Source: Okeania sp. SIO2B3 (GTDB lineage: Bacteria > Cyanobacteriota > Cyanobacteriia > Cyanobacteriales > Microcoleaceae). From it: a stretch of DNA of 64,000 nucleotides. Below, piece after piece: positions 1 through 14,635 of the stretch. The DNA lies in assembly GCF_010672525.1 (NCBI RefSeq), contig NZ_JAAHGH010000005.1:248672-312671 (forward strand), given 5' to 3'. The number at the start of each line of letters is the position of its first letter. The stretch's first letter is position 1. Both the position numbers and the translations under genes were made by a program. The notes under the pieces were generated by a model. It was not told where the DNA came from. It was given only the letters and a program-made list of their open reading frames with translations, and ran no database searches.

Positions 1-60
1 TGGGGCAATGAATTAAAATAGTAATCTATTTACTTAGGATAAAATGAGTGTATCTTGTAT
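1..60. repeat. direct repeat, end of an earlier tandem copy
   Basis: The first 60 bases match 475-534 with only a few differences (period 474 bp). At 475 the segment covers the last codons and stop of a solute-binding-protein remnant plus its 3' flank, so the window opens at the tail of another copy of the same gene end. Positions 61-218 hold a fragment of the hairpin element seen elsewhere (around 127-170) and pyrimidine-rich text. Confidence 0.8.
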
Positions 61-218
61 ATTTCATATCAGTTATTAGTACCTATGCAATCAGGAGACT
101 TGACCTGGGCGAATATTCTCTTTTTTTGATCCCCTTAACAGGGGAGCCGCATACCCACAATTTCTCGGTAAAAATACTTTTTTCCTATTCCCTGTTCCCT
201 ATTCCCTCCATACCTAAA

Positions 219-485
219 GCGGAAATTAATTGGCGTACTGCTACATCTTATGATGCGACTAAAACTATTATTAAAGCTGTAGATGAAATGATGGGGAATT
301 ATTCTCGTAAACAGTTACAAAGAATCTTATCTAATCCCAATTTTTCCCTAGAAGGAGTAACTGGAAAAATTAGATTTAGGGAGTCAGGCGATTGGCAGTT
401 TTTCGAGAAGGATAAACCACTGTTAGTTCAAGTAAAATCTAATGCTAAATCTGGAAAATATGAATTTGTAATTCTGGGGCAATGA
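219..485 (+). pseudogene. C-terminal remnant of a solute-binding protein gene
   Basis: The roughly 88 codons from 219 translate to a peptide starting AEINWRTATSYDA and ending NAKSGKYEFVILGQ. It is clearly homologous to the last part of the solute-binding protein encoded at 629-2212 (AEINWRTATSYDAAKTII and NAKSGKYEFII there). The open frame extends upstream to about 48, but that part is repeat-derived and unrelated to the family. No ribosome site precedes it. I read it as a decayed or duplicated gene end, left by tandem duplication and deletion. It keeps a clean stop codon directly after the family's natural end, which the full-length neighbour has lost. Confidence 0.75.
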
Positions 486-628
486 ATTAAAATAGTAATT
501 TATTTGCTTAGGATAAAATAGGTGTATCTTGTATCTGTAAAAAAACTTTATTCTCTACTCCCTATTCCCTATTCCTTAAAACCGATAATTTTTTTGGCTT
601 TATTTAAAATAGATATTTACCCGATAAA

Positions 629-2212
629 ATGACTCAACAAAATATTTGGCATAAATTTATTCACCGAGCCAAGCTACCCTTAGAATTGGCAGGATTATTC
701 ATTGCAGCTATTCTCCTATTCCAGGATGTAGGAGACTTAATAATTCCCTTTCTAACTCAAGATGTTCCAAAAATTAATAATAGTATTGGAGAAAAAACCA
801 TGTTTCCTTCTGGGGAAATATCCGCAGAAAAAGAATTAGGAATGAGAGAGATAAAAGAGAAAAGATTTAACAGTGCTATTTCCTATTTCCGCAAATCTCT
901 TAATTTCAAAAAAAATGACCCAGAGACAGTAATTTTTTTGAATAATTCCATCGCTCAAGCAAAAAAAGTCAATCAAAACAGAAAAATATTAGAAATAGCA
1001 GTTAGTATTCCTGCTCATGGAGAAGCTAATGTTGCAGCAGAAATTTTACGGGGAGTTGCTCAAGCTCAAAGTGAATTTAATTGTGGTTTAGCTGAAATTT
1101 CCCTAGCTATCAAAGATACTCAACATCAATTAAATTGCCAAGGTAGTCTCAATGGTAAATTTTTACAAGTCACAATTGTTGACGATAAAAATGAGCCAGA
1201 AACTGCTAAAAAAGTTGCTAAATATTTAGTCAAACAAAAAGATATTATCGCCATTATTGGTCACTACTCTAGTCCAATGACTCTCAGTGCGGGAGAAATT
1301 TATAACAAAAATAAATTAGTCGCAATTTCTCCTACTAGCACCTCAACTATCTTATCGAATTTTAGTAAGTTTGTATTTAAGATTTCTCCTAGCGATAAAC
1401 TAGCCGCTCAAGCTTTATTTGAGTATTTCGAGGAACTTGGAAAATCTCAAAAAGTAGCAGTAGCTTATGTAAAAAATAATGAATATAGTGAATCTCTGAA
1501 GCAAGAATTTGAGACATTCCTACTACCGAAAAAATTTGTGCATCAATGTTACTTGAATGATGGAAATTTTAGCACTCAAGATTGTATTGAACAGGCAAAA
1601 AATCAAGGCGCTGAAGTAATGTTATTAGTTCCGACAACTAAAACTCTGACTAATGCCATTGGAGTAATTGATAATGCTAAAGGATTAAAATTACTAGGGG
1701 GAGATTCTGTTTATAATTATCGAGTTGTAAATGATGCTGGAGAAGAAGCAAATCAGAATAATTTGACAGTTGCTATTCCTTGGCATCGTCACCCTAACTC
1801 TCAATTTAATCAAACAGCTCAAAAGTTTTGGAATGCTGAAATTAATTGGCGTACTGCTACTTCTTATGATGCAGCAAAAACTATTATTAAAGCTCTCGAT
1901 AAAAGTAATGGTAATTATTCCCGTAAAAAATTACAAAGAATTTTATCTAGTGGTGATTTTGATGTAGAAGGAGTAACAGGAAAAATTAGATTTGGGGAGT
2001 TAGGCGATCGCCAGTTTCTCGATATAGGTAAATCAGTATTAGTTCAAGTAAAACCTAATGCTAAATCTGGGAAATATGAATTTATTATCTTGGAGGAGGA
2101 GAGTAGAGGGATGGGGAGATGGGGAGATGGGGAGATGGGGAGATTCGTAAGTAGCACAATTTTTGTCTTTCATATTACTTCTTTCTTCTCAATTCTTACT
2201 TTTAACTTTTGA
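629..2212 (+). CDS. membrane-anchored branched-chain-type solute-binding protein
   Basis: 527 codons. Residues about 17-40 form one hydrophobic segment after a short basic start, so the rest probably lies in the periplasm as an anchored protein. A short TPR-like helix pair (about 70-110) precedes a Leu/Ile/Val-binding-protein fold of the ABC receptor family (about 129-485; 'AVSIPAHGEAN', 'IIGHYSSPMTLSAG', 'AISPTSTS'). Known family role: binding amino acids or other small ligands, either for ABC transport or as a sensor input. No permease or ATPase gene lies nearby, so sensing is as likely as uptake. The family domain ends near base 2095. The last about 36 residues are translated from low-complexity GGGGAGATGG and from the first copy of a 50-bp tandem repeat, so the native stop appears to be lost. 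Confidence 0.8.
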   Translation: MTQQNIWHKFIHRAKLPLELAGLFIAAILLFQDVGDLIIPFLTQDVPKINNSIGEKTMFPSGEISAEKELGMREIKEKRFNSAISYFRKSLNFKKNDPETVIFLNNSIAQAKKVNQNRKILEIAVSIPAHGEANVAAEILRGVAQAQSEFNCGLAEISLAIKDTQHQLNCQGSLNGKFLQVTIVDDKNEPETAKKVAKYLVKQKDIIAIIGHYSSPMTLSAGEIYNKNKLVAISPTSTSTILSNFSKFVFKISPSDKLAAQALFEYFEELGKSQKVAVAYVKNNEYSESLKQEFETFLLPKKFVHQCYLNDGNFSTQDCIEQAKNQGAEVMLLVPTTKTLTNAIGVIDNAKGLKLLGGDSVYNYRVVNDAGEEANQNNLTVAIPWHRHPNSQFNQTAQKFWNAEINWRTATSYDAAKTIIKALDKSNGNYSRKKLQRILSSGDFDVEGVTGKIRFGELGDRQFLDIGKSVLVQVKPNAKSGKYEFIILEEESRGMGRWGDGEMGRFVSSTIFVFHITSFFSILTFNF

Positions 2213-2385
2213 CTCTTAACTTATAACTTCCTTCCTTCTCAATTCTTACTTTTAACTTTTGACTCTTGACTTATAACTTCCTTCCTTCTCAATTCTTACT
2301 TTTAACTTTTGACTCTTGACTTATAACTTCCTTCCTTCTCAATTCTTACTTTTAACTTTTGACTTTTGACTTATAACTCTTGACT
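2186..2385. repeat. four tandem copies of a 50-bp repeat
   Basis: TTCTCAATTCTTAC recurs at 2186, 2236, 2286 and 2336, an exact 50-bp period. Each unit continues with TTTTAACTTTTGACTC and TTATAACTTCC. The array and its CTTCC-rich extension to about 2440 fill the gap between the two SBP genes. The last codons and stop of the upstream gene lie in the first unit. Confidence 0.9.
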
Positions 2386-2463
2386 TATAACTTCCTTCCC
2401 TCTTCCTTCTTCCTTCTTCCCTCTTACTTCTTACTTATAAATTAATTAAAATAGGATGCAACT

Positions 2464-4638
2464 ATGAGTATTATAAAGATTAAACTTCTTGAAACTGAAG
2501 CCCCTGGATTTCATGTAACTCTCACTGCCAACGATGGTAAATTTGATTCTATTGATGGTTTTTTACCAGCTTTACCACCAGAATTAGAATCATCATTGAG
2601 TAATTGGCAGTTAGCTTATCACCAATTAGAAAAAGTTCGTAAAATTTCTACTAGAATTAGTCCCAAAAAAACTATTTCTTTCTCCAGTTCAGAACAAAGA
2701 AAACTGGTAAAAACTCAGATTAATAAATGGCTAGATTCTGACGATAGTCGATGGCGACCAATCCGAGAAGAATTAATTTCTGTATTTAGTTCATTGCAAA
2801 ATTCTGAGTCAGAAATTCGTGTATTTCTAGATGCAAAAAATCCTAAACTACGACGACTACCTTGGCAAGAATGGGGTTTATTAGCATCTCGGTTTCCTCA
2901 AGCAGAAATTGCTATGAGAGTCAGAGGAAAAGGTGCATTAAAACCTGCTCCTAATCATGGCAAACTCAGAGTGCTTTTAGTCGTAGGAAAAAGTGCCGGG
3001 ATTAATACTGATTTAGATGTAGAAATAGTGCAAAAACTACAAGAAAAAGGAGCAGAAATTATCTGCTTAAAACAGCCCAGTAGAGAAAAATTTGCCAATA
3101 CTCTCAGAGAAGAATCAGGTTATCATATCTTTATTTTTTCTGGTCATAGTCGCAGTGAAGAAGATGGTACAATTGGCTGGATTTCTCTCAACGACAGTGA
3201 CGAATTAAGTATTGACGAATTCAAGAATTCTCTCAGATATGTAATAGATAAAGGATTACAATTAGCAATATTTAATTCCTGTGATGGTTTAGGATTAGCT
3301 AGTCAATTAGCTCAGTTAAGTTTGCCTCGTAGTATTGTCATGCGAGAACCCATATCTGATGAAGTAGCAGTCAAATTTTTAGAATATTTCTTTGAGGAAT
3401 TTACTAAAAATAAATCCTTATTTAGTTCTGTTCATACTGCTAGAGAACGTCTCGAATATTTTGAATCTGATTATCCAGGGGCAATGTGGTTACCAACAAT
3501 ATGTATTCGAGAGTCAGCATTAGATAAACCTTTAACTTGGCAACAAATTACTGGCAACTTAATCGAGACTCCCCAAACTTCATTACGGAATAAAAGAATT
3601 TTCTTATTATTAGGAACTATAAGTTTATTGATTATTGGTGGGGTAATTTTCTCGCTGATTAGTGGAGAAAAAACACCTGAACAAGATTTCGTAAATTCTC
3701 CCTGTCCGCAACAACCCATCCAAAATAAACCCCCCACAGAAAATCAAATCAAATCTGTCAGATGTTTTGCTTATATTCCTGATGTTCCTGATGGTAAATG
3801 GCTACATGGATCTAGTACAACTTGGGCGCCAATTCGCAGTAAAATTAATCCAAAAATTCAAGCAATCTTTCCAGAATTTCAGTTAAATTACAGACAACAT
3901 CCGAGTTTACCTCCTGGTTCAGGAACTGGAATTAAAATGCTATTAGAAGGTCAAATTTCTTTTGCTGAATCTTCACGACCTTTGACAGATACTGAATTGC
4001 AAATCGCCAGAAATAGAGGTTTTCAACTAAAGCAAATTCCTGTTGCTATGGATGGCATTGCTATAGTAGTTCATCCCGAACTTGATATTGAAGGTTTAAC
4101 CTTAAAACAACTCCAAGAAATCTATACTGGTAAGATTAAAAACTGGAGCGAAGTAGGAGGACCTAATATTGAAATTATTCTCTATACTCGTCCTTTGAAT
4201 AGTGGTACAACTCCTTTCTTTCAAGAAAACATTTTAGGTAACAAAGAATTTAGTGAAAATGTAGCTTTGGTTCCCACTACTACTCAAGCTTTACGAGAGG
4301 TAACTGCAAATAAAGGAGGAATTTATTTTGCCACAGCTTCAGAAATTATTCCTCAGTGTGGCGTGAAACCTTTATCAATTGCCTATCGATCGGGAGGTAC
4401 TTTTGTTCCTCCTTATAAAGGTGAATTTGTGCCACCAGAAAATTGTCCTGAACAGCGTAACCAACCAAATTTAGAAACATTTGAAAATGGAACATATCCG
4501 ATTTCGAGACGGTTATTTGTGATTGTGAAAAAAGATGGTTCTTTTGATGAAAAAGCTGGAGAAGCTTATGGAAATTTACTGTTGACAGATGAAGGGCAAA
4601 AATTAATTGAAGAAGCTGGATATAGTCCAATTCGTTAA
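2464..4638 (+). CDS. CHAT-domain protease fused to a PstS-like solute-binding domain
   Basis: 724 codons with three parts. Residues about 165-350 are a CHAT (caspase-like) domain: the likely catalytic pair is His228 in 'FSGHS' and Cys273 in 'FNSCDG', and the domain ends with the typical 'GAMWLPTICIRE'. Residues about 378-400 form a single membrane segment. Residues about 443-720 are a phosphate-binding-protein (PstS-like) fold with 'GSSTTW', 'GSGTGIKMLLEG', 'FAESSRPL' and 'LNSGTTPFFQ'. Residues 1-160 resemble nothing I can name, though they are common ahead of cyanobacterial CHAT domains. The topology predicts a cytoplasmic protease tied to a periplasmic ligand sensor. No pst transporter gene is adjacent. 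Ligand and substrate are unknown. ATG at 2464 follows a weak AGGATG stretch. Confidence 0.85.
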   Translation: MSIIKIKLLETEAPGFHVTLTANDGKFDSIDGFLPALPPELESSLSNWQLAYHQLEKVRKISTRISPKKTISFSSSEQRKLVKTQINKWLDSDDSRWRPIREELISVFSSLQNSESEIRVFLDAKNPKLRRLPWQEWGLLASRFPQAEIAMRVRGKGALKPAPNHGKLRVLLVVGKSAGINTDLDVEIVQKLQEKGAEIICLKQPSREKFANTLREESGYHIFIFSGHSRSEEDGTIGWISLNDSDELSIDEFKNSLRYVIDKGLQLAIFNSCDGLGLASQLAQLSLPRSIVMREPISDEVAVKFLEYFFEEFTKNKSLFSSVHTARERLEYFESDYPGAMWLPTICIRESALDKPLTWQQITGNLIETPQTSLRNKRIFLLLGTISLLIIGGVIFSLISGEKTPEQDFVNSPCPQQPIQNKPPTENQIKSVRCFAYIPDVPDGKWLHGSSTTWAPIRSKINPKIQAIFPEFQLNYRQHPSLPPGSGTGIKMLLEGQISFAESSRPLTDTELQIARNRGFQLKQIPVAMDGIAIVVHPELDIEGLTLKQLQEIYTGKIKNWSEVGGPNIEIILYTRPLNSGTTPFFQENILGNKEFSENVALVPTTTQALREVTANKGGIYFATASEIIPQCGVKPLSIAYRSGGTFVPPYKGEFVPPENCPEQRNQPNLETFENGTYPISRRLFVIVKKDGSFDEKAGEAYGNLLLTDEGQKLIEEAGYSPIR

Positions 4639-4942
4639 TGTTTTAAAGAAGGAAGAAGGAAGAAGGAAAAAGCAGATAGTCCAGTAGGGTGCGTTAATGA
4701 AATGTAACGCACCATCTATGGACAAAAAGAAACCAAACCATTCTTAACCCATCAGGTGCGGTGCGTTACGCTAGCGCTAACACACCCTACCAATAGCTCA
4801 ACGGACATGGTAATAAATTTAATTCCTAGAATTTTGCATAAATTTTTCGGTTGTGCCTGATAAATTAGTAAATCTTCATTTGGGAACCTTCTCTATCTAT
4901 AGATATATGGTTGCCCAATTCAGGTATCGCAGGAGAAATTAG
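4639..4942. other. intergenic, dispersed GTAGGGTGCGTTA palindromic repeat
   Basis: After a GAAGAAGG tract the gap holds two related palindromic blocks: GTAGGGTGCGTTA with TAACGCACC (4684-4713), and GTGCGTTACGCTAGCGCTAAC with ACACCCTACC (about 4760-4795, the first arm running one base beyond GTGCGTTACGCTAGCGCTAA). From about 4818 the upstream part of the duplicated unit begins. No gene seen. Confidence 0.7.
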
Positions 4943-5809
4943 ATGGAAATAGTTAAGCAGACTGAAAAAGAACTGGTTTTTCAAAATCGATTATCTTATG
5001 GTTGTGCCTTTTTATTCGCTTTTCCCTGGGTAGGAATATCGTTGCTTTTCAGTTTAGTAAAATTATCAGATATGGAAGTAATTAAAGTTTCGTGTCAACG
5101 AGTCGAACCAACTCAAGTTAATTGTCAGGTCAATAACTCAGAGTATTTAGGTTTAATCCCATATTCTTCTACTTCCTTGACTCGGGTAACAGAAGCCAAA
5201 TTGAATTCGCGGAAGAGTCAGGCTAGTGATGGTTACACTTCTTTTAATCATTTTGTGACCTTAGTAACTAAAACAGGAAAAGAAGTTGTCAGTTGGCAGA
5301 GTATTTCATCTGTCAATGATGTTAGGGGTTACCCTCAAGAAATGATTGATATGGCGACAAAAATTAACACATTTATCAATAATTCAACTGAGCCATCTCT
5401 GCTTATTCAGTACGATCTACGTTGGAAAAAGGAAAACCTGATACCTTTAGCTATCGGCATTACTTTTCTTGGAATAGGAGTTTTACTTCTGTATACACTT
5501 TTGTATCTAAAAGTCATTACACTTAACAAAAGTGAACGACTATTAACCTACAAAATCTATTCTTTATTGGGTATCAAAACCAAACATTATTCCTTTGCCC
5601 AAATCAAAGAGTTAATTCTAGACAGTTATACAGATAGCGATGGAGATAAATCCTGTAGCTTAGAGTTAGTATTACCAGCAGAAAATCAAAATCATCAGTT
5701 TAAAATTCCTTTAATATTATATGATTCTGACATTGAAAAAGTTAAAAAATTAGCTAATGTTGTTGCTAATTTTATCGATAAGCCCTATCAATATTTGTCA
5801 AATAAGTAA
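4943..5809 (+). CDS. two-pass membrane protein, tandem paralogue A
   Basis: 288 codons with AGGAGA eight bases before the ATG. Hydrophobic segments lie at about 20-40 and 167-192. Between them is a polar domain of about 120 residues ('VSCQRVEPTQVNCQV', 'FVTLVTKTGKEVVSWQ'). After the second segment comes a C-terminal domain with 'KHYSFAQIKELILDS' and 'LELVLPAENQN', which reads like a PH-like or photosystem-assembly-type membrane-associated beta fold. The two cysteines flanking 'QRVEPTQVN' are conserved in both paralogues and could pair if the loop is periplasmic. I cannot name the family. It lies inside the same-strand group of SBP genes. The function is unknown. Confidence 0.8.
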   Translation: MEIVKQTEKELVFQNRLSYGCAFLFAFPWVGISLLFSLVKLSDMEVIKVSCQRVEPTQVNCQVNNSEYLGLIPYSSTSLTRVTEAKLNSRKSQASDGYTSFNHFVTLVTKTGKEVVSWQSISSVNDVRGYPQEMIDMATKINTFINNSTEPSLLIQYDLRWKKENLIPLAIGITFLGIGVLLLYTLLYLKVITLNKSERLLTYKIYSLLGIKTKHYSFAQIKELILDSYTDSDGDKSCSLELVLPAENQNHQFKIPLILYDSDIEKVKKLANVVANFIDKPYQYLSNK

Positions 5810-6092
5810 TCATTTTTTTTGAATGCTTTGGGTTAGTTTAGTAGAATGGAAATGTCTATACATTTAAAATTTTAAGTTTTGTAAACCATACTGGTAATAT
5901 CTGTAAAATTGCCATGTTTTGTTGATGAATAATACAGTAAGGCGCTTTGATTTCTGACAATTTATTCCTAGCTAGATCGAATTTTGCATAAATTTCTCCT
6001 ATGTGCCTGATAAATTAGTAAATCTTCATTTGGAGACCTTCTCTATCTGTAGATATATGGTTGCCCAATTCAGGTATCACAGGAGAAATTAT

Positions 6093-6950
6093 ATGGAAGT
6101 AGTTCAGGAGACTGAAAAAGAAATTATTTTTCAAGATAGATCATCTTTTGGTTGTGTCTTTTTGTTCTTAGTTTTTCCCTTTGTACTAAGATCGTTGGGT
6201 TTGAGTTTATTAATTTTATCGGAGATGGGAGTAATTAAGGTTTCGTGTCAACGGGTCGAACCAACTCAAGTTAATTGTCAGGTCAATAGCTCAAAGTATT
6301 TAGGTTTAATCCAAGGTTCTTCTAATTCCTTGACTCGGGTAACAGAAGCCAAATTTAATTCCCAAAATGATAGTTATGGCAGTAATTATTTTGTGACATT
6401 GGTAACTCAAACAGGAAAAGAAGTTGTCAGTTGGCAGGGTAATTCATATACCAATGGTGTTAAGGGTTACCCTCAAGAAATGAATGAAATGGTGGAAAAA
6501 ATTAACACATTTATCAAGAATTCAACTGAACCATCTCTGCTTATTCAGTACGATATACGTTGGAAATGGAAAAACCTGATGTCTTTAGCTCTCAACATTA
6601 CCTTTATTGGAATAGCAGTTTTACTTCTAGGTAAACCTTATTATCTAAAAATCATTACACTTAACAAAAGTGAAGGACAATTAACCTACAAAATCTCTTC
6701 TTTATTGGGATTGTATACTAAAACCAAACACTATTCTTTTGCCCAAATCAAAGAATTAATTCTAGACAGTGACACAAATAGCGATGGAGATAAATTCTAT
6801 AGCTTAGAGTTAGTATTACCTGCAGAAAATCAAAATAATCAGTTAAAAGTCCCTTTAAGAAAATATTATGACATTGAAAGAAGTAAAAAAGCAGCCACAA
6901 TATTATCTGATTTTATCGAGATACCCTATCAAGACTTGTCAAATGAATAA
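6093..6950 (+). CDS. two-pass membrane protein, tandem paralogue B
   Basis: 285 codons. An in-frame ATG also exists at 6003, but 6093 is chosen because it carries AGGAGA eight bases upstream and aligns exactly with the start of paralogue A; the extra 30 codons would be translated from the duplicated 5' flank. Architecture matches A: membrane segments at about 18-42 and 167-188, the 'VSCQRVEPTQVNCQV' loop, and the C-terminal 'KHYSFAQIKELILDSD' domain. It differs mainly in the first membrane segment and loop lengths. Conservation of the shared cysteines and of the C-terminal domain suggests both copies are under selection. Function unknown. Confidence 0.8.
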   Translation: MEVVQETEKEIIFQDRSSFGCVFLFLVFPFVLRSLGLSLLILSEMGVIKVSCQRVEPTQVNCQVNSSKYLGLIQGSSNSLTRVTEAKFNSQNDSYGSNYFVTLVTQTGKEVVSWQGNSYTNGVKGYPQEMNEMVEKINTFIKNSTEPSLLIQYDIRWKWKNLMSLALNITFIGIAVLLLGKPYYLKIITLNKSEGQLTYKISSLLGLYTKTKHYSFAQIKELILDSDTNSDGDKFYSLELVLPAENQNNQLKVPLRKYYDIERSKKAATILSDFIEIPYQDLSNE

Positions 6951-7243
6951 TCATTTTTTTTGAATGCTTTGGGTGAGTTGAGTAGAATAGAAATGTCTAT
7001 ACATTTAAAATATTAAGTTTTGTAAACAATGTCGATAATATCTGTAAAATTGCCATGTTTTGTTGATGAATAATAGAGTAAGACGCTTTGAGTTCTTACT
7101 ATTTATTCCTAGCTAGATCGAATTTTGCATAATTTTCCAGAAACTAGCTGATTAATAAGTATAAAGAAAAATAGACACTTAATATATGACGTCAATTATT
7201 AGAGTGCCTATCGAAAATTATATCAATCTCAAATAGGTGAAAT

Positions 7244-7447
7244 ATGATGATGAAAATAGGCGAAATTCTAATCCGCAGACAATTAATTTCTGAAGTTCAA
7301 TTAAATCAAGTAATAGATATTCAGACTTCATGTCATCAAAAAATTGGTGAGCTTTTATTATTTCAAGGTTGGATTAGAGAAGATGATTTAGAAGCAGCTT
7401 TAAGAGAACAATATTGGCGAGAAAATGGTTATTGGATAATTGATTAA
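7244..7447 (+). CDS. small MshEN-like protein
   Basis: 67 codons. 'GEILIRRQLISEVQLNQVID' followed by 'KIGELLLFQGWIREDDLEAAL' has the two-helix pattern of the MshEN / GspE N-terminal domain (G-x-L-L-x-x-x-x-I-x-x-x-x-L). In type II secretion and type IV pilus ATPases that domain, often repeated, binds c-di-GMP or partner proteins. Here it stands alone with no ATPase. Stand-alone copies of this type are known in cyanobacteria without a settled role. Three ATG codons in a row start the frame; AGGTG lies upstream. A GAAGAAGG tract begins right after the stop. Confidence 0.65.
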   Translation: MMMKIGEILIRRQLISEVQLNQVIDIQTSCHQKIGELLLFQGWIREDDLEAALREQYWRENGYWIID

Positions 7448-7650
7448 GGAAGAAGGAAGAAGGAAGAAGGAAGAAGGAACTTATAAGTCAAAAGTTAAAA
7501 GTCAAAAGTCAAAAGTAAGAAGGAAGTTATCAGTCAAAAGTAAGAAGGAAGGAGGAAGAAGGAAGAAAGCATTTACAGGACTTACGCAAATTGACCTGTA
7601 GGGGCGAATGGCATTCGCCCTTGCTATATGTAGAGTCCCTTTTTTTATAG
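7448..7650. repeat. polypurine tract and a miniature-element remnant
   Basis: 7446-7575 is a GAAGAAGG / GTCAAAAGTAAGAAGG tract, on the mRNA strand of the gene it follows. From 7576, AGGACTTACGCAAATTGACC with a nested GGGGCGAATGGCATTCGCCC-type palindrome and TATATGTAGAGTCC matches, inverted, the element at about 34824-34890. This resembles the AGGACTTACGCA miniature elements near 26-27 kb with a REP-like palindrome inside. Confidence 0.7.
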
Positions 7651-7673
7651 AGGCAAAAACAGATTATTCATAA

Positions 7674-7702
7674 AGGCATTCTACAGGATGCCTATTTTTT
7701 TT
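7674..7702 (+). terminator. Rho-independent-type terminator
   Basis: AGGCAT and ATGCCT form a perfect 6-bp stem (7674-7679, 7688-7693) around an 8-base loop, followed by A and eight Ts. It lies 60 bp before the next gene and would end transcription from the upstream set. Confidence 0.6.
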
Positions 7703-7761
7703 GCATAAAAAGGGAGAAAAAGACTGATTAATAAATATAGTTCAATTACTATCACAGAAAA

Positions 7762-9459
7762 ATGAAAATCAACTGGCAAAAAATCAGTCTAATTCCCAGC
7801 TTAGGACTTCTGTTTTTGGGAGCTTGTACTCCAGCTAATAATTCCTCAAATACTTCAGGGTTGGAAGTCAAATTTTTAGTTGGCAGTGCTTTAGAAAAAT
7901 TCTGTAACCAAGCTGCAACTGAACTAAACCAACAACAACCAAAACTCGATAATGGTAAATCTTTTTACCTAAAATGCGAAGCGAAAGGTAGTGGAGATGT
8001 AGTCAAAGATATTGTTTCTTTATCCCAAAAACTCAAAAATGGAACCATCCAACCAGACTCCCCAAAATTTCCCACCCTAATTTCCGTAGATGGAGAAATT
8101 TATCATTCCCAACTCTTGTACCAAATTAATCAAATTTATCCCGGACAAAATTATATTCCTCAAATCACTGACGCACCTTTGTTGGCAAATAGTCCCATGG
8201 TATTCATGGCATCACAAGAAATAGCAGCAGGACTACGAAAACAACCAGATATATATCGCTCCCTGGTCAGTGCTAAAACTCACCAAGACCTAGACCCTAA
8301 TAGTCCCCAACTGCCAATACATTATGTTCACACTGCTCCCACTCGTTCCAATTCTGGTCTGCAAACCTTGGTAGCTCAGTTTGCCTCTGTTGCCAATAAA
8401 CGCCCCGAACAACTCACTGCTGCTGACGTACAACAATATCAACCCCAAGTCCAAAAAATTCAGAGCAAAGTCACTCGCTACGGGGTTTCCACCAGTTCTC
8501 TAGCTGAAGATATGGTGAAAAATGGTCCGTTTTGGGCATCCATCGCTTCTGTTTATGAGTCTTCCGTAATTGAGGCAAATACTGCTAATACTCAAACTCG
8601 CTATGAGGCAATTTATCCCAGTTCTACTTTTACTTCTAATATGAGGGCAATTTTACCAACTGCACCCTGGGTGAGCGAGGATGAACAAGAGGCAGCAGAA
8701 AAAGTCATTGAATATTTGCGATCGCCAGTCGCCCAACAAATTCTTACAGAGTTAGGTCTCAGACCAGGGATACCGGGAGTGTCTTTGGGAGCAAAATTTT
8801 CTTCCCAATACGGAGTAGACCCCAATGCTAAATATGATTCTCTGCGGACTCCCCAACCAGAAGTAGTGAATGCCATGATTAAATCTTGGCAAGAATTTGC
8901 GAAGAAACCATCTCAGGTGGTTTTGGTAGTTGACTCTTCTGGGTCTATGAGCGGTGAAAAGTTACCTGCTGTTCAGAATACTTTGCGCTACTATCTTGAG
9001 GGTTTAGGACCAAAAGAAAAAATTGCTCTGATTGATTTTGACACTGAAATTAAAGCTCCGGTTTGGGTTGATGGTACTACTGAAGGTCGCGCTCGCGGTA
9101 TGCAGTTTATTAGTAGTTTGAAAGCGGATGGTGGTACAAAACTTTATGATGCTGCTTTGAATGCCAGAAATTTATTACAAAAAAATCTCAGTTCTGATGC
9201 TATTAATGCTGTAGTTCTTTTAACTGATGGGGAAGACTCTGGTTCTCAAACTTCTCTCAAACAACTGAGCAATAATCTGAAAAACAGTGGATTTGATTCT
9301 GACAAAAGGATTGCTTTTTTTACTATTGGTTATGGGAAAAAGGGAGAATTTGATGCTGGAGTCTTGAAACAAATTGCTAGTTTAAATGGTGGTTATTATC
9401 GTCAGGGAGACCCAGAAAGTATTGTTAATTTAATGTCCGATCTACAAACAGAATTTTAA
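7762..9459 (+). CDS. lipoprotein with solute-binding and VWA domains
   Basis: 565 codons. A lipoprotein signal ends in LGAC (Cys22), so the protein should be anchored on the outer face of the cytoplasmic membrane or in the outer membrane. Residues about 35-380 form a type 2 solute-binding fold with 'APTRSNSGL', a motif also found as DPTRSNSG in the protein at 11768-12871. Residues about 385-560 are a von Willebrand A domain with a complete metal site: DSSGS at 391-395, Thr in 'DGGTKLYDA' and Asp in 'LLTDGEDSG'. VWA domains bind protein partners through the metal; joining one to an SBP suggests ligand-dependent complex formation. SBP-VWA proteins exist in cyanobacteria; their role is not established to my knowledge. 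Confidence 0.85.
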   Translation: MKINWQKISLIPSLGLLFLGACTPANNSSNTSGLEVKFLVGSALEKFCNQAATELNQQQPKLDNGKSFYLKCEAKGSGDVVKDIVSLSQKLKNGTIQPDSPKFPTLISVDGEIYHSQLLYQINQIYPGQNYIPQITDAPLLANSPMVFMASQEIAAGLRKQPDIYRSLVSAKTHQDLDPNSPQLPIHYVHTAPTRSNSGLQTLVAQFASVANKRPEQLTAADVQQYQPQVQKIQSKVTRYGVSTSSLAEDMVKNGPFWASIASVYESSVIEANTANTQTRYEAIYPSSTFTSNMRAILPTAPWVSEDEQEAAEKVIEYLRSPVAQQILTELGLRPGIPGVSLGAKFSSQYGVDPNAKYDSLRTPQPEVVNAMIKSWQEFAKKPSQVVLVVDSSGSMSGEKLPAVQNTLRYYLEGLGPKEKIALIDFDTEIKAPVWVDGTTEGRARGMQFISSLKADGGTKLYDAALNARNLLQKNLSSDAINAVVLLTDGEDSGSQTSLKQLSNNLKNSGFDSDKRIAFFTIGYGKKGEFDAGVLKQIASLNGGYYRQGDPESIVNLMSDLQTEF

Positions 9460-9866
9460 CTCACATTCGGCACCACAAAATGTAGAAACCGAAGAAGGAG
9501 TCAGGAGACAGGAGACAGGAGACAGAATTTTAGAAGAAAATCATAGCTACCTTCAACAATTAATAATTAATAATTAATAATTAATTATGACCTCTTCTTT
9601 TCAAGAATAGGATTGATTCAAAGGAAAATTTTTCTTTATTATTTCCTTCAAAGGGGAGCCTTTCCACCAAAATTTTTCGGTAATTGAGTAAGCGTTCGAG
9701 CAAGTATTTATGCTTCATTCTTTACTCGGAATTTGATGAGCGAAAAAAGTAATGCAGATGATTTTCATAGTACAAATGCCTGCCAAGCTACGATTTTTTT
9801 ATACTAATTTTAATCATAAAAATTGAAGTGCGGAATGTGGGTTTTAATTTTTATCTAGAGGTAAAT
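9460..9866. repeat. intergenic, composite hairpin element
   Basis: GGAGACAGGAGACAGGAGACAG-like text (9497-9525) lies just after the gene. At 9557-9693 is a copy of the composite element: TTCAACAATTAATAATTAAT leader, CCTCTTCTTTTCAAG hairpin, CAAAGGGGAGCC and TTTTTCGGTAA end. The rest up to 9866 shows no gene. Confidence 0.7.
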
Positions 9867-10586
9867 ATGAAATTAGTGAATCCGTTTGATTATCCTATAT
9901 CTATATTAATAGGTGGATTTTTGTTAATAACTGGTGTCCGGTTTGTGAAGTTGCCAAATTTTGTAATTTTACCTGCTACGGCAGTTGTTTCTGTGGCAAG
10001 TGCTACAGTGTTGAAATCTCAAGAACCCGATGCTGAAAAGTTGGCAAAAAAACAGTTAGAACAAGAATTAGAAGTTATTTCTGGACTGGCAAAAAATTTG
10101 GCAGAAAAAGCTGAAGTTTTGCGACAAGAAGCTAATCAATTGTTAGGTGGTGAAGCCTTTCAAATGGAATTATTAGTAACAGTTCAATCAGTTTGCGATC
10201 GCGCTATTGAACTACCACATAAAATTACAGAAATGTCTCAAAATTTACCGAAGAATGAGGCATTATTATCTGTGGAGGATTTGGAAAGACAATTATTAGA
10301 AGTTAAGAGTAAGCAAAGGTCTAATTCTGATATTACTCAACAGCATTTAAAACAATTAGCTGCGAGTTTAGAGCGAAATATTCAGTTAGCAAAAGCTGGA
10401 AAAGATACTCGACAAGCAAAAATTCTTAGTCTACATACCATGGTTCAAGATTCGGCAGGATTATTGCAAGAACTAGAGAATAAATTGCGGAATGCTAACT
10501 TAAATGATTTGGCAGAAATTCAAGAATTACGCAGTTTAAGTGATGAGTTAAATAGCTATCAAAATAATATGAAAATATTCCTTTGA
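9867..10586 (+). CDS. membrane-anchored coiled-coil protein
   Basis: 239 codons from the ATG at 9867, which has AGAGGT upstream; a longer frame from 9828 would add 13 residues of AT-rich text. Two hydrophobic stretches sit close together near the N terminus (about 10-27 and 33-50). They are followed by a long helical, Lys/Glu/Gln-rich region with heptad spacing (from about 60 to the end). I cannot place the family. It lies between the SBP-VWA gene and another SBP gene on the same strand, so it may act with them at the membrane. A GAAGAAGG tract starts two bases after the stop. Confidence 0.7.
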   Translation: MKLVNPFDYPISILIGGFLLITGVRFVKLPNFVILPATAVVSVASATVLKSQEPDAEKLAKKQLEQELEVISGLAKNLAEKAEVLRQEANQLLGGEAFQMELLVTVQSVCDRAIELPHKITEMSQNLPKNEALLSVEDLERQLLEVKSKQRSNSDITQQHLKQLAASLERNIQLAKAGKDTRQAKILSLHTMVQDSAGLLQELENKLRNANLNDLAEIQELRSLSDELNSYQNNMKIFL

Positions 10587-10885
10587 TAAGAAGGAAGAAG
10601 GAAGAAAGAAGAAGGAAGAAGGAAGAAGGAAGAAGGAAGAAGACCTTTATTGATCTAGGATAGAAGATTATACCATGTCCGGATAATTAGCGATCAAAAA
10701 ACTTATTCTCTTGCTTAAACAGTAAATCTTTCTATTTTCCCTACTCCCCTACTCCCCCGCTCCTTAAAAAAGACTTTTTCAGCAAACCCTAAGTACATTG
10801 ATTTGATTGTGTCCCTAAAAAGAATTAAGTTTGCATAAATAGTTAAATTCTTTCTGATATTTTTATAAGTACCAGAAAGAAAATT

Positions 10886-11083
10886 ATGAAAAATAAACTT
10901 GATTCTCTTTTGTTGGTAGTACTTTTCACAACAACTATGACTTTTTTACGAGAGGAGAAAATACTAATAAATAAGTTAAACGATAGTTTTTCTCAAGCTG
11001 AAATAGCTATTATTCAACAACAAAAAAATCATCAAGAGGATGAACAACCACCTGTTCCAGATAAAGATGCTGGCAGTCGTTAA
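10886..11083 (+). CDS. small exported peptide, unknown
   Basis: 65 codons beginning MKNKLDSLLLVVLFTTT, which looks like a signal peptide or anchor, then a polar tail ending 'PPVPDKDAGSR'. AGAAAG lies at a reasonable distance before the ATG. The preceding 299 bases (10587-10885) hold a purine tract, ATACCATGTCCGGATAATTAG (one base longer than ATACCATGTCCGGATAATTA), and CTACTCCCCTACTCCCC, with no gene. A polypurine tract follows the stop, as for its neighbours. I recognise no family; translation is plausible but not secure. Confidence 0.4.
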   Translation: MKNKLDSLLLVVLFTTTMTFLREEKILINKLNDSFSQAEIAIIQQQKNHQEDEQPPVPDKDAGSR

Positions 11084-11471
11084 AGTTAATCAGCAGAAGT
11101 AAGAAGTAAGAAGGAAGAAAGAAGAAGGAGAAAGAAAGAAAAAGGAGAAATAAGTCTTTAGTTATCTAGGATAAAAGGTTGATGATTGATATTCCGTTGT
11201 TTTAGATATTTCATAAGTCAAGAATTGCCATATATAGATGACAACTAGGAGTTAACGATGCCATAAGTAGCAAATAAAATATGATGAATTTTCTAACAAT
11301 ATGTACTTGACCCACCAATAAAATCCCAGAGAATAAAATTTGCTAAAAACAATAGTATTTTGACAGTAAAAAAACAGCAATATTAGAGAGCGGGTTTTGT
11401 TAACGAAGTCAGAAGTCAGAAGTTAACCCACCCCTCGCCCCTCCCCCTCCCAGGAGGGGAAGTAAAGGATT
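11084..11471. other. intergenic, purine tract and CCCACCCCTCGCCCC repeat
   Basis: GAAGAAGG-type tract to about 11160, then AT-rich unique sequence without a convincing frame. AACGAAGTCAGAAGTCAGAAG-like text (its first 20 bases from 11400) and CAACCCACCCCTCGCCCCTC-type sequence with the CCCCTCCCAGGAGGGG stem follow; the latter recurs near 24725, 28420, 48085 and 63170. Confidence 0.65.
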
Positions 11472-11589
11472 TGGGTGCATCTCATAGCAAAAATACTTTT
11501 TTCCTATATATTCCCTGTTGCCTGTTGCCTGTTGCCTGTTGCCTAAAAGCAATAAATTTTTGGCTTTATTCAAAATTGAGATGCACCCA
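11472..11589. mobile_element. 118-bp miniature inverted-repeat element with target duplication
   Basis: Perfect 13-bp terminal inverted repeats TGGGTGCATCTCA / TGAGATGCACCCA (11472-11484, 11577-11589) are flanked by the direct repeat AGGATT (11466-11471, 11590-11595), as expected from a 6-bp target duplication. The interior has GTTGCCT tandem repeats and no coding capacity. A full-length transposase would have to act in trans. Confidence 0.85.
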
Positions 11590-11767
11590 AGGATTTGAGC
11601 TTCTCTCCAAAAATATTGTGCCTTAAAAGGCAGGGTTTTAGACCCATGTTATTTTGATAAATCATCGCCCTGACTTCAAAGCTTTTGGTTAAACCCGCAC
11701 CTACAAAATTTTAACGTTTAATTAGACTTAACTATTAACTGAATTGACACTAGGAGAAGATTCAACC

Positions 11768-12871
11768 ATGACAATTACAAATCAAAAATCTATCAAAAAT
11801 AATCGCATTTTATCTGGAATACTTACTTGCATAGCTGTAGCTTTAGCTTATGCACCAATTCCAGGATTAAATCAAAAAATCATAGTAGTTAGTGGCACAG
11901 AATTTGCCGAACCACTCCAACAAATAGAAACTCAATTTGAGCAAAAATATCCCCACATAAACTTAGAATTAAAATTTCAAGGTTCCCAGGATATTATCAA
12001 CAATTACATAGACCAAAAAAACGACTTTAATCCTACAGTTTTAATCCCAACAAATGCAGCACTATTAGATGAATTAAACCAACGCTGGCAAAGTCAAAAT
12101 AATACCCAAGCATTCTATCAACAACCAACAGCGATCGCCAAAACTTTCCTAGTAGGAATTGCTTGGCCTGAACGTGGAAAAATCTTATTTCCCAATGGCA
12201 AATTTTCCTGGCAACAATTAGAAAAAGCAATGGCAGCAGGTAGCTGGCAAAAAATAGGCGGTCAACAACAATGGGGTAGTTTTGATTTCGTCACCACCGA
12301 CCCCACTCGTTCCAATAGTGGGCAAATAACCATGAATTTGTGGGCAAAGTCAAAAGGCAACAACAACTTGAATACACCCGCCGTTGAATCATTATTTAGT
12401 ACAGTCAAACGGTCAGTTTATTTGCCTCCCCGTTCCACCGATATCTTGTTACAAGAATTTATTGCTCGCGGACCTAATGATGCGGATGTAGCAACAGTTT
12501 ACGAAAGCATCGCCCTCTATCGTTGGCAACAGTCAGGTGCAGCTCAAAATAAACCTTATCAAGTTTATTATCTCAACCCCACCGTAGAAACTGTAGCGAC
12601 AGCAGCGGTCGTGCGTCGGGATGTAAATGGGGCAACTGCTAATGCTGCTGGTAAATTTATAGATTTCTTGACGCAACCAGAACAACAAAAAGTATTTGTG
12701 CAGTATGGTTTCCGTCCCACCCACGGCAATATCGATCTGCTATCTGTTGCCAATAGTCCTTGGAATCAGAATATTCCTGGTGCTCAAGTTAACCCGCAAA
12801 TTTCCACTTTACCAGCACCACAACCATCAGTTTTGGGAGAAATTCAAAAGTTGTGGCAAAGGGTGCAGTAA
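11768..12871 (+). CDS. type 2 extracellular solute-binding protein
   Basis: 367 codons from the ATG at 11768 (AGGAGA ten bases upstream); a start at 11744 would place that ribosome site inside the gene. A signal peptide or anchor spans about 15-32. The remainder is a type 2 periplasmic binding fold: 'VVSGTEFAEPLQQIE' at the mature start, 'TTDPTRSNSGQITMNLWA' in the ligand site, 'DVATVYESIAL', and C-terminal 'FVQYGFRP'. This is the family of bacterial extracellular solute-binding proteins that often pair with VWA proteins in cyanobacteria, and the protein at 7762-9459 carries a related domain. No permease genes are adjacent, so its role in uptake is open. Confidence 0.8.
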   Translation: MTITNQKSIKNNRILSGILTCIAVALAYAPIPGLNQKIIVVSGTEFAEPLQQIETQFEQKYPHINLELKFQGSQDIINNYIDQKNDFNPTVLIPTNAALLDELNQRWQSQNNTQAFYQQPTAIAKTFLVGIAWPERGKILFPNGKFSWQQLEKAMAAGSWQKIGGQQQWGSFDFVTTDPTRSNSGQITMNLWAKSKGNNNLNTPAVESLFSTVKRSVYLPPRSTDILLQEFIARGPNDADVATVYESIALYRWQQSGAAQNKPYQVYYLNPTVETVATAAVVRRDVNGATANAAGKFIDFLTQPEQQKVFVQYGFRPTHGNIDLLSVANSPWNQNIPGAQVNPQISTLPAPQPSVLGEIQKLWQRVQ

Positions 12872-13791
12872 ATAATGAATAATTAATAATGAATAATAGA
12901 CTTGTCGCTTTATAACTATAAAAAACTGGTAAACCCTTATCATGTAAGGATTTTAGCCAGTCTCATATAAAAACGTCTGGAATTATTACTGTGTCTTAAT
13001 TTGAGCGATTTTTTTCTATCTATTTAGCGACAACTCTAATAGATAATTACCTCTGATCAAAATCGAGAAAATTTTGACAGTGGTGCTTGTGATGGAACAT
13101 TTTTTTAGACCCAGTTAATTTGATATAACTTTACGACCGCTAATCAAGTGGACCTAATATTGGTGATTTATTCTCATCTGCATATCTTAAATATCACTGA
13201 GAAATACATTATATTAACACCGCTAAAAGATGTTAATTTCAGGGGGATTTAATATAACTTTACGACCGCTAATCAAGTGGACCTGATATTGGTGATTTAT
13301 TCTCATCTGCATATCTTAAATATCACTGAGAAATACATTATATTAACACCGCTAAAAAATGTTAATTTCAGGTCTTGTTGAACTGAATATTATCAATTTA
13401 ATTAATAGCAAAAACGAGTTGTTATTTGACATAGAGTGATGATAAATCAAATACGAGGAAATGTTTTTCCCACTATTTATTCACAAGAGTACCCATTCTC
13501 TTACGTCTGTTGCCGACGAGGGGTTGCACCGCTATTTCCTGCTATGTATTTAAACAACTTAGTCCATTTCGTAAATTTCAGTATATTTAACTAGCTATCA
13601 GCTTTTTGAGCTTGGATTAAAATCCCCTTTTAAACTTTAGAAAAATAATCTTGCTGACTGCTGAGTGCTAACTGCTGAGTGCTAACCACTTTTTTAATCT
13701 AGAATATTTTTTTTCTATAGCCTAAAATAGAATTACAGACAAAAAAATAAATCTCATATAAATATACATTGCGTAAGGATACTTAAGGAAA
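12872..13791. other. 920-bp intergenic space
   Basis: A weak hairpin CCTTA-TAAGG with ATTTT (12935-12954) could terminate the SBP gene. Two 121-bp direct repeats follow (separate entry). The stretch 13373-13791 is AT-rich and includes CTGCTGAGTGCTAACTGCTG-type duplicated text around 13660. I see no gene or structured RNA that I can name. Confidence 0.6.
13123..13372. repeat. pair of near-identical 121-bp direct repeats
   Basis: 13123-13243 and 13252-13372 both begin ATATAACTTTACGACCGCTA and end GATGTTAATTTCAGG or AATGTTAATTTCAGG, with only two or so differences and an 8-bp spacer. They are not coding in any frame and match none of the other repeat families in this window. Confidence 0.9.
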
Positions 13792-14367
13792 ATGTTTTTT
13801 CTAGGAATTGGATTCTTAATTCTAGGTCTAATATTAGCAATAGTAAGTGGAATATGGGGCTTAGTTCAAGCTTTTAGTGAAGGCACATTATGGGGTGTTT
13901 CTTATTTATTTATTCCTTTTGCTTTTGTCATTTTTTATCTAACAAATTGGAGTCAGAGAAAAATCAGAAAAAATTTTATCTTGATGATAATTGGTTTGAT
14001 TTTTTCTCTTGTAGGGACTGGAACATTAGGAAATCATATAACTAATAATTTTGTGGTTAATTCTGCCAATATTCCCGAAAATCCAACTATTACTACTAAC
14101 TCCGAAAATACTTCAACAAAGATAGAAACAACCGAAGTTATTTCTGACCCATTTAGAGAAGGAATAAATGCAGCAACAAAAGCAGCCGAACTTGCCCAAA
14201 CAGCTAATACTCAAACACAGTGGAATGAAGTAGCAATGACTTGGCATAACGCTTTAGTTTTAATGAAAGAAGTTCCTGAATCTCATACTCAATATGAGGT
14301 TGCCCAAAACAGAATTGATTTATATCGAAATAATCGAGAAATTGCTAAGAAAAAGGCTAACTATTAA
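13792..14367 (+). CDS. three-pass membrane protein with a cyanobacterial helical tail
   Basis: 191 codons. Hydrophobic segments at about 2-24, 33-50 and 61-80. After a Thr/Asn-rich linker, residues about 122-191 carry 'AATKAAELAQTANTQTQWNEVAMTWHNALVLMKEVP' (over several helices; the core pattern is A..A...Q-TA-T..QW..V...W..A..LMK.VP) and 'YEVAQNRIDLYRNNREIAK'. That TPR-like helical motif recurs at the ends of many cyanobacterial membrane or envelope proteins, usually with no assigned function. It is likely a protein-binding tail. A GAAGTCAGAAGTCAG tract starts right after the stop. Confidence 0.75.
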   Translation: MFFLGIGFLILGLILAIVSGIWGLVQAFSEGTLWGVSYLFIPFAFVIFYLTNWSQRKIRKNFILMIIGLIFSLVGTGTLGNHITNNFVVNSANIPENPTITTNSENTSTKIETTEVISDPFREGINAATKAAELAQTANTQTQWNEVAMTWHNALVLMKEVPESHTQYEVAQNRIDLYRNNREIAKKKANY

Positions 14368-14635
14368 CGAAGTCAGAAGTCAGAATTCAGAAGTTAGAAG
14401 TTATTTTTGGAGAGTTGTTAAAAATCCCCGTTATCAAAATATTTCACCCTAAAAGGAAGAATTTCAGACTCAATTACTTTGTTGAAGAAGGAAGAAGAAA
14501 GAAGGAAGAAAAAATGGATGGGGATAGTCTTCGACAAGCCACTTCGTGTCTACAAACCCTAACCAATTGTCAACATCGTGTAGACGGTGAGGTATTAAAC
14601 CCAAAATAAAAAGATAAATTAGGAAAAATCAGGAA

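Follow-up and report, generated by a model that had tools for sequence, protein, structure and literature searches.

A CHAT cassette with predicted solute sensors adjoining a conserved SBP-VWA gene set in the cyanobacterium Okeania sp. SIO2B3

The window analyzed here, a 64,000-nucleotide stretch of the Okeania sp. SIO2B3 genome (contig NZ_JAAHGH010000005.1; genome size 10.0 Mb), carries seven genes in which solute-binding protein (SBP) domains occur together with a CHAT cysteine protease and with a VWA domain. The neighborhood very probably consists of two gene sets standing side by side rather than one system: module A, which spans positions 629–4638 and extends upstream of the window, and module B, at 4943–12871. 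Overall, the explanation that we prefer, with some reserve, is a receptor-protease (module A) beside a separate surface complex (module B). A first-pass annotation of the window had reported seven genes on one strand, encoding an anchored branched-chain-type SBP, CHAT-transmembrane-PstS-like, SBP-VWA and SBP proteins, a pair of two-pass membrane paralogues and a membrane coiled-coil protein. All seven open reading frames (ORFs) are intact and lie on the plus strand where that annotation placed them, and Pfam matches and hydropathy bear out the domains. The Pfam scan covered ten window ORFs (48–16090), and transmembrane (TM) segments were called from hydropathy only. The seven genes are as follows.

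629..2212, plus strand: anchored protein with a TPR-like stretch and a Peripla_BP_6 domain (Pfam, 79 bits); it lacks CHAT and accompanies the CHAT gene that lies upstream.
2464..4638, plus strand: protein with an N-terminal constant region, CHAT, one TM segment and a PstS-like domain (Pfam, hydropathy).
4943..5809, plus strand: TP1, predicted two-pass membrane protein and module B accessory, with two hydrophobic segments and two Cys residues invariant in its family.
6003..6950, plus strand: TP2, paralogue of TP1; probable start at about 6093, where an in-frame Met aligns with TP1.
7762..9459, plus strand: SBP-VWA lipoprotein (SBP_bac_8 and VWA), core gene of module B (Pfam, lipobox, MIDAS motif, structure model).
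9828..10586, plus strand: predicted membrane hairpin and helical bundle protein, core gene of module B; likely start at an in-frame Met at about 9867.
11744..12871, plus strand: membrane-anchored SBP (SBP_bac_11, Pfam), core gene of module B; likely start at about 11768.

The 2464–4638 protein of module A contains a CHAT domain at residues 175–331 (PF12770, 39.8 bits, above the cut-off) and a PBP_like_2 domain at residues 465–710 (123.9 bits). A single hydrophobic segment (residues 381–399) lies between the CHAT and PstS-like domains, which are therefore predicted to reside on opposite sides of the membrane. The catalytic His228 and Cys273 are invariant in 25/25 CHAT-PstS proteins, and both residues are present in all five CHAT-Peripla_BP_6 proteins checked. 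The same strand upstream of the window carries a gene for a sigma-like protein, one for DUF1822 (Pfam, 230 bits) and another CHAT gene, whose 872-residue product has a TPR-like stretch (below the Pfam cut-off) and a Peripla_BP_6 domain. CHAT-less Peripla_BP_6 companions similar to the 629–2212 protein exist in loci L092 and L108 and on a Planktothrix plasmid (L211; annotation and Pfam), and CHAT-sensor genes are also arranged in tandem in L123 and L127. Among 28 loci with CHAT-PstS or CHAT-Peripla_BP_6 genes, 18 have a sigma-like and a DUF1822 gene upstream on the same strand, including L109, where the two are in one ORF with a weak sigma part; two others have DUF1822 alone upstream (one cut, one partial). 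DUF1822 also adjoins CHAT in three loci on plasmids, where the C-termini are CHASE2 or of other kinds, and plasmid relatives of the CHAT protein are annotated with CHASE2, WD-repeat and pentapeptide C-termini.

This organization is close to one already proposed. The EACC2-caspase proteins of Kaur et al. (2021, eLife, PMC8195603) have a constant N-terminus and a caspase-like protease followed by variable C-terminal sensors; in that paper, neighborhoods without a TRADD-N gene mostly contain an extracytoplasmic function (ECF) sigma factor and DUF1822, and stimulus-driven autopeptidase activation is put forward as a proposal. The likeness of module A extends over the constant N-terminal region joined to CHAT, the variable C-terminus that includes extracellular sensors, and the sigma and DUF1822 neighbors. 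Three of five EACC2-caspase features are found in module A: a caspase-like domain with catalytic His and Cys, a variable C-terminus with a TM segment and an extracellular sensor (PstS-like or Peripla_BP_6), and a neighboring sigma factor (by similarity) and DUF1822 (by Pfam). Module A is probably a fresh member or a variant of the EACC2-caspase kind. It differs in that the C-termini there are given as 'several small-molecule-binding domains', with PstS-like and Peripla_BP_6 domains not named in the text available, and in having several of these genes arrayed in tandem next to module B. Placing module A in the EACC2-caspase kind from its architecture and neighbors is probably correct, with certain points counting the other way. 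Family members have about 100 residues ahead of CHAT, and the libraries searched list no model for the EACC2 domain. The sigma-like protein of the source genome has helix-turn-helix matches below Pfam cut-offs only, and its name is taken from a relative's gene annotated as sigma-70. Eight of the 28 CHAT-sensor loci, some near contig ends, have neither gene upstream; in one of them, L120, a sigma-like/DUF1822 pair lies ~5 kb downstream.

More distant likenesses were also weighed. HetF, a cyanobacterial CHAT-type protein (NCBIfam NF045509), matches the CHAT regions weakly (23.8 and 29.8 bits), far below its equivalog cut-off of 1200, and to our knowledge HetF has no solute-binding domain. The solute-binding domain of the CHAT protein scores 157.5 bits against the PstS family TIGR02136, and its closest solved chain by sequence is Sll0540 (PDB 9l8j); unlike PstS, the domain falls below the curated cut-off of 206.6 and is fused to CHAT and a TM segment. 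No PstC, PstA or PstB gene was found among the ten scanned window ORFs. The PADLOC models gave no match to the module B proteins submitted and, for the CHAT region, only a weak SAVED_CHAT match (17.2 bits, E 4.7e-4), and a defense island was set aside as an interpretation.

In the mechanism that we propose for module A, a single TM helix would connect an extracytoplasmic PstS-like or Peripla_BP_6 domain to a CHAT (caspase-like) cysteine protease in the cytosol. Binding of a ligand, or its absence, may alter the protease, which would cleave either itself or its putative operon partners, the DUF1822 and sigma-like proteins, and would in this way control the sigma-like factor. The domains, the catalytic residues and the gene order are direct observations; the topology and the ligands we infer. 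The general idea of sensor-caspase control is owed to Kaur et al. (2021, PMC8195603).

Module B is a widely conserved cyanobacterial gene set for which we found no published name. The first-pass annotation knew of no description of a periplasmic-sensor-controlled protease network; this proved wrong for the general sensor, caspase, sigma and DUF1822 arrangement, which was proposed in 2021 in the paper cited above, and held for module B, of which a literature search covering few subscription papers returned no description. The main sample comprises 80 of 145 relatives (the 80-locus set). In these loci, the helical gene lies downstream of SBP-VWA in 73 and the SBP gene in 71; both are present in 67, in the same order and on one strand. 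Among the 13 loci without the complete triad, L133, L173, L183 and L204 end within 2.4 kb; only the SBP is missing from L137, L139 and L197, and only the helical gene from L164, L165, L168 and L175, the first three of which have a two-pass gene instead; L141 and L147 have neither. A second sample of 32 SBP-VWA loci, several of them from the same genomes as the 80-locus set, so that counts are never summed, has the full triad in 26. Eight more loci, chiefly from other orders, include four triads, two SBP-VWA genes alone, one unjudgeable case and one rearrangement (L212, a genome of another order), in which the SBP-VWA and helical genes stand head-to-head with a divergently transcribed SBP; the linkage of the module B genes thus survives rearrangement. 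In L207 (Gloeobacterales), the helical protein and the SBP share one reading frame. At E 1e-60, and with fragments counted, 68 of 388 sampled genomes of the order carry SBP-VWA; in a sample of the phylum, 21 of 292 genomes do at E 1e-40. The family is 50–98% identical across genomes, on which ground chance ORFs were rejected, and the window protein is 96–98% identical to its counterparts in three Okeania metagenome-assembled genomes (MAGs; L128, L129 and L131). When the ORFs of the 80-locus set were clustered, no other family kept a constant position in distant relatives. Two non-cyanobacterial plasmid records contain SBP-VWA relatives (27 and 34% identity). Their helical-looking neighbors, in Miltoncostaea and Thiodictyon, reach hhalign probabilities of 3% and 0.1%, and the SBP of Thiodictyon matches weakly by BLASTP (E 0.008); with homology of the neighbors this weak or undetected, we make no claim of a full triad beyond the cyanobacteria.

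The SBP-VWA lipoprotein has two conserved motifs. The lipobox Cys is present in 29/29 aligned rows that reach the position, 6 of 35 rows stopping short of it. MIDAS, the metal-ion-dependent motif of VWA domains, reads DxSxS...T...D, and the family retains it: D391 in 34/35 rows, S393 in 35/35, S395 in 35/35, T459 in 34/35 and D489 in 35/35. The predicted model (pLDDT 87) consists of a complete SBP fold followed by a VWA domain. Structure searches, whose lists test folds and not function, relate the SBP part to thiamine, sulfate, iron and polyamine receptors (Z 22–27 over ~270–300 residues) and the VWA part to inter-alpha-inhibitor heavy chains (Z ~23 over 176–181 residues). The likeness to the inter-alpha-trypsin inhibitor heavy chain (9c4f_I) lies in the VWA fold, with 30% identity over 176 residues; partner domains and organism differ, and a shared function is not implied. 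The helical protein was modeled with lower confidence (pLDDT 77) as a membrane hairpin and a helical bundle, for which Foldseek gave a best E of 0.11 and Pfam and NCBIfam gave no match. For the anchored SBP, no solved sequence relative was found at E 0.1.

Two accessories accompany this core. TP1 and TP2 are 71% identical, have two hydrophobic segments each, and belong to a family with two Cys residues invariant across 16 rows. The family occurs in 16 loci of the 80-locus set: in 13 it lies downstream of SBP-VWA, before the SBP gene or the point where the contig stops, in two (both Okeania) upstream, and in one past the SBP. A search of the source genome with TP1 returned only the TP1 and TP2 genes. 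An iterated profile found none of the family in 19 CHAT loci (L109–L127), and a single-sequence search gave one partial 36-bit match, in L110. Judged from sequence, the two window proteins are assigned to module B and not to bystanders. The second accessory is an HtpX-like M48 protease, found in the unit in three of the 80 loci: L138 (Lyngbya aestuarii), L166 (Microcystis wesenbergii) and L133 (Coleofasciculus), the last match being broken at the contig end. It also occurs in L101, outside the 80-locus set. In L138, L166 and L101, the protease is in one frame with the SBP and its zinc motif is intact (HEISH or HELSH). The fused relatives have the M48 fold signature, with HExxH and SRxRExAAD motifs and a PF01435 score of 112.8 bits in L138; they differ from HtpX in being fused to an SBP and in that the best score (298.1 bits, for L138 only) lies below the NCBIfam equivalog cut-off of 369. 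In L181, a two-pass protein is joined to an apparent HtpX tail (read by eye; weak profile match) and an SBP, which looks like what is left of a VWA, helical, two-pass, HtpX, SBP order. A 32-bit HtpX match in L156, 8 kb from SBP-VWA, was too weak to count as a module B HtpX, and weak M48 matches in CHAT loci L117 and L118 were not counted either. An HtpX query had no match in the window at E 0.001. The link between periplasm and protease suggested by the first-pass annotation exists, in part through an HtpX that is absent from the window itself.

From these data, we picture module B as a surface complex of the SBP-VWA lipoprotein, the hairpin helical protein and the anchored SBP, with two-pass and HtpX proteins as optional parts. 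The two transporter-less SBPs would report a periplasmic solute to a membrane protein, as the fusions and gene order suggest, the MIDAS of the VWA domain may touch the membrane partners in a ligand-dependent way, and in loci that have HtpX it might tune membrane proteolysis, again in line with fusions and gene order. The MIDAS residues and the fusions are observed directly; the contacts and the direction of signaling belong to the model. That module B is a non-transport sensing complex has a little under an even chance in our estimate, and the tie to HtpX is more tentative. Several observations pull against this picture: HtpX is rare (3/80 loci) and missing from the window; SBP-VWA stands alone, without partners, in L141 and L147 (both Moorena) and in L217 and L218; the core genes in the window are separated by 0.4 and 1.2 kb, and a single transcript is not implied; and four related loci of Leptolyngbya type (L159, L172, L177 and L198) have a secondary-transporter-like gene, read by eye, on the strand of SBP-VWA and ~0.4 kb upstream of it.

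The last observation leads to a different role, in which module B would be an uptake accessory whose carrier SBPs pass their cargo to a distant importer, with the VWA domain docking to it. It would also suit the whole-length superposition of the SBP part of the SBP-VWA model on transport SBPs such as those for thiamine (2qry, Z 26.8) and sulfate (5um2, Z 26.6), as well as the recurrence of an ABC-ATPase-like gene in 8 of the 80 loci, at varied distance and on either strand (read by eye). However, as the first-pass annotation had held, Pfam finds no permease or transport ATPase family in the seven ORFs, so that the window unit lacks the permease and ATPase genes that define an ABC importer operon; no such gene has a fixed place in the 80 loci, and the fusions join the module to a membrane protease and a helical protein, not to transporters. 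We regard the uptake role as unlikely. An equally improbable alternative is that module B serves metal or anion handling or envelope quality control, the VWA domain binding misfolded or unmetallated clients that HtpX then degrades. The HtpX-SBP fusions and the two invariant Cys residues of the two-pass family speak for such a role; the restriction of HtpX to 3/80 loci speaks against it, as does the lack of any chaperone or chelatase recognized by eye among the recurrent neighbor clusters. The non-transport sensing complex is retained here as the working model of module B.

The relation between the two modules was examined through their linkage. A related CHAT gene lies near SBP-VWA in four of the 80 loci: Okeania L129 and L131, Lyngbya L138 and Gomphosphaeria L180. 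In all four it is upstream and on the same strand, the nearest gene or fragment being 112 bp to 6.5 kb away, with the 112-bp spacing in Lyngbya aestuarii (L138); a CHAT gene downstream of SBP-VWA or on the opposite strand was seen nowhere in the DNA examined of the 80 loci. The same upstream arrangement is present in the source genome and in genome G281, whose genus code is shared with a Trichodesmium MAG. On a quick SBP-VWA tree, counted against all other rows and without Okeania L128, whose contig is too short to show linkage, the CHAT linkage requires at least three gains or losses, Gomphosphaeria standing apart from the others. A Poisson estimate yields 0.027 and 0.002 for two and three independent linkages, respectively, on the assumption of about one related CHAT gene per Mb, a density hand-counted in the source genome alone. 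Genome G306 (L107), with a CHAT-PstS gene and a broken triad 10.5 kb apart, was considered as a further linkage lineage and set aside as too decayed.

The check named by the first-pass annotation, co-occurrence of CHAT-SBP and SBP-VWA genes beyond chance, came out positive at the level of genomes. Hand-read lists give 16 genomes with both CHAT-PstS and SBP-VWA against 4.6 expected (p 2e-7). By genus, from hand-counted totals, the figures are 10 against 4.5 (p 0.003), and by genus among the listed genomes of at least 7 Mb (86 listed rows, 56 further genomes left out) they are 5 against 2.0 (p 0.016). The CHAT-PstS list holds 26 genomes, read from the best two candidates per genome among the matches listed, with CHAT-only and PBP-only matches excluded. 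Fragmentary or split copies were retained in both lists, for example G369 and G047 for CHAT-PstS and G010, G066, G175, G211, G262, G306 and G369 for SBP-VWA.

Together, the constant upstream, same-strand position, the close spacing in L138, the repeated gains or losses and the excess co-occurrence are what would be expected if the two modules formed one integrated system, the SBP-VWA complex being the partner or target of the CHAT-sensor proteases. However, 76 of the 80 loci have no related CHAT gene in the DNA examined, which covers at least 8 kb upstream in 53 of the 80 and less than 2 kb in 10. Copies of the two modules are mostly separate, and the majority of the CHAT-PstS genes detected are located elsewhere. 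In Moorena bouillonii, both modules are on one 8.3-Mb contig, megabases apart. In L089 and L091, module B is intact but the CHAT-PstS gene is disrupted or largely lost, although in L124 both are broken, and the Trichodesmium MAG (L130) keeps the triad with no CHAT gene within 10 kb upstream. The source genome has a second SBP-VWA/helical/SBP copy (L026, contig C77), and L156, L160 and L167 are placed on a separate branch of the SBP-VWA tree; the DNA examined around these four copies contains no related CHAT gene. A single integrated system therefore seems improbable to us, and in our reading the modules have been put together repeatedly, not generally. Of the protease network suggested by the first-pass annotation, the recurrent CHAT proteins with extracytoplasmic sensors and an intact catalytic dyad are supported, and the one joint system is not; likewise, the neighborhood comparison that it called for found the SBP-VWA unit kept and the joint neighborhood scattered in relatives.

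A broader reading may be entertained, doubtful as it is: that module B is a sensing complex found throughout the cyanobacterial phylum and so far undescribed, made of a pair of transporter-less SBPs, one of them bearing a metal-dependent VWA clamp, with a helical readout and, in some lineages, a covalently attached HtpX. In a few marine and mat-forming lineages, it would be plugged into caspase-like receptor-proteases whose own binding domains sense solutes. If this were true, cyanobacteria would wire periplasmic nutrient sensing straight into proteolysis, without histidine kinases or transporters, and by two routes: a solute-binding domain carried on a caspase-like protease, and binding proteins that lack a transporter and are coupled to a membrane protease. 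The HtpX-SBP fusions and the fixed three-gene order lead to testable interaction predictions, and the genera concerned include Nostoc, Anabaena and Microcystis.

Two further features of the window complete the set.

48..485, plus strand: 145-residue duplicated C-terminal tail of the upstream CHAT/TPR-like/Peripla_BP_6 gene (tandem partial duplication).
10588..10642, plus strand: 7-bp tandem repeat array between module B genes.

The first of these corresponds to the last of three copies, 97–100% identical, of a 300-nucleotide stretch at L009:17713–19187 (contig C195), and only this copy lies inside the window. The 3' end of the upstream CHAT gene has been duplicated twice, yielding two 145-residue tail ORFs, and this duplication is recent and local. 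The second is one of many: spacers in window positions 1–22000 are rich in tandem arrays (for example 2173–2440, 10588–10642 and 13118–13372), with a period of 7 or 14 in 18 of 28 rows, and a 129-bp duplication lies at 13118–13372. The 1.16-kb gap ahead of the SBP gene has no long open frame in six frames that could be a hidden gene.

CHAT domains are frequent in the 10-Mb source genome, with 43 matches (42 above the Pfam cut-off), several of them within open frames of more than 3000 residues. On Planktothrix pseudagardhii plasmid p1 (L211, 773–7552), PspA/IM30 (by annotation), a lone Peripla_BP_6 protein, a sigma factor, DUF1822 and CHAT-Peripla_BP_6 follow in a row, and module A can thus be plasmid-borne. 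On plasmid5 of Nostoc sp. HK-01 (L210, 5098–10034), a sigma-like/DUF1822/CHAT-SBP cassette comes after the gene for a small CHAT protein, which in addition scores 113 bits with the sigma-like profile. Finally, on the 3' side of the SBP gene in the window, 13792–16090 codes for two proteins, one of 191 residues that has three hydrophobic segments and one with DUF1517, a position kept in Okeania L129 and L131.

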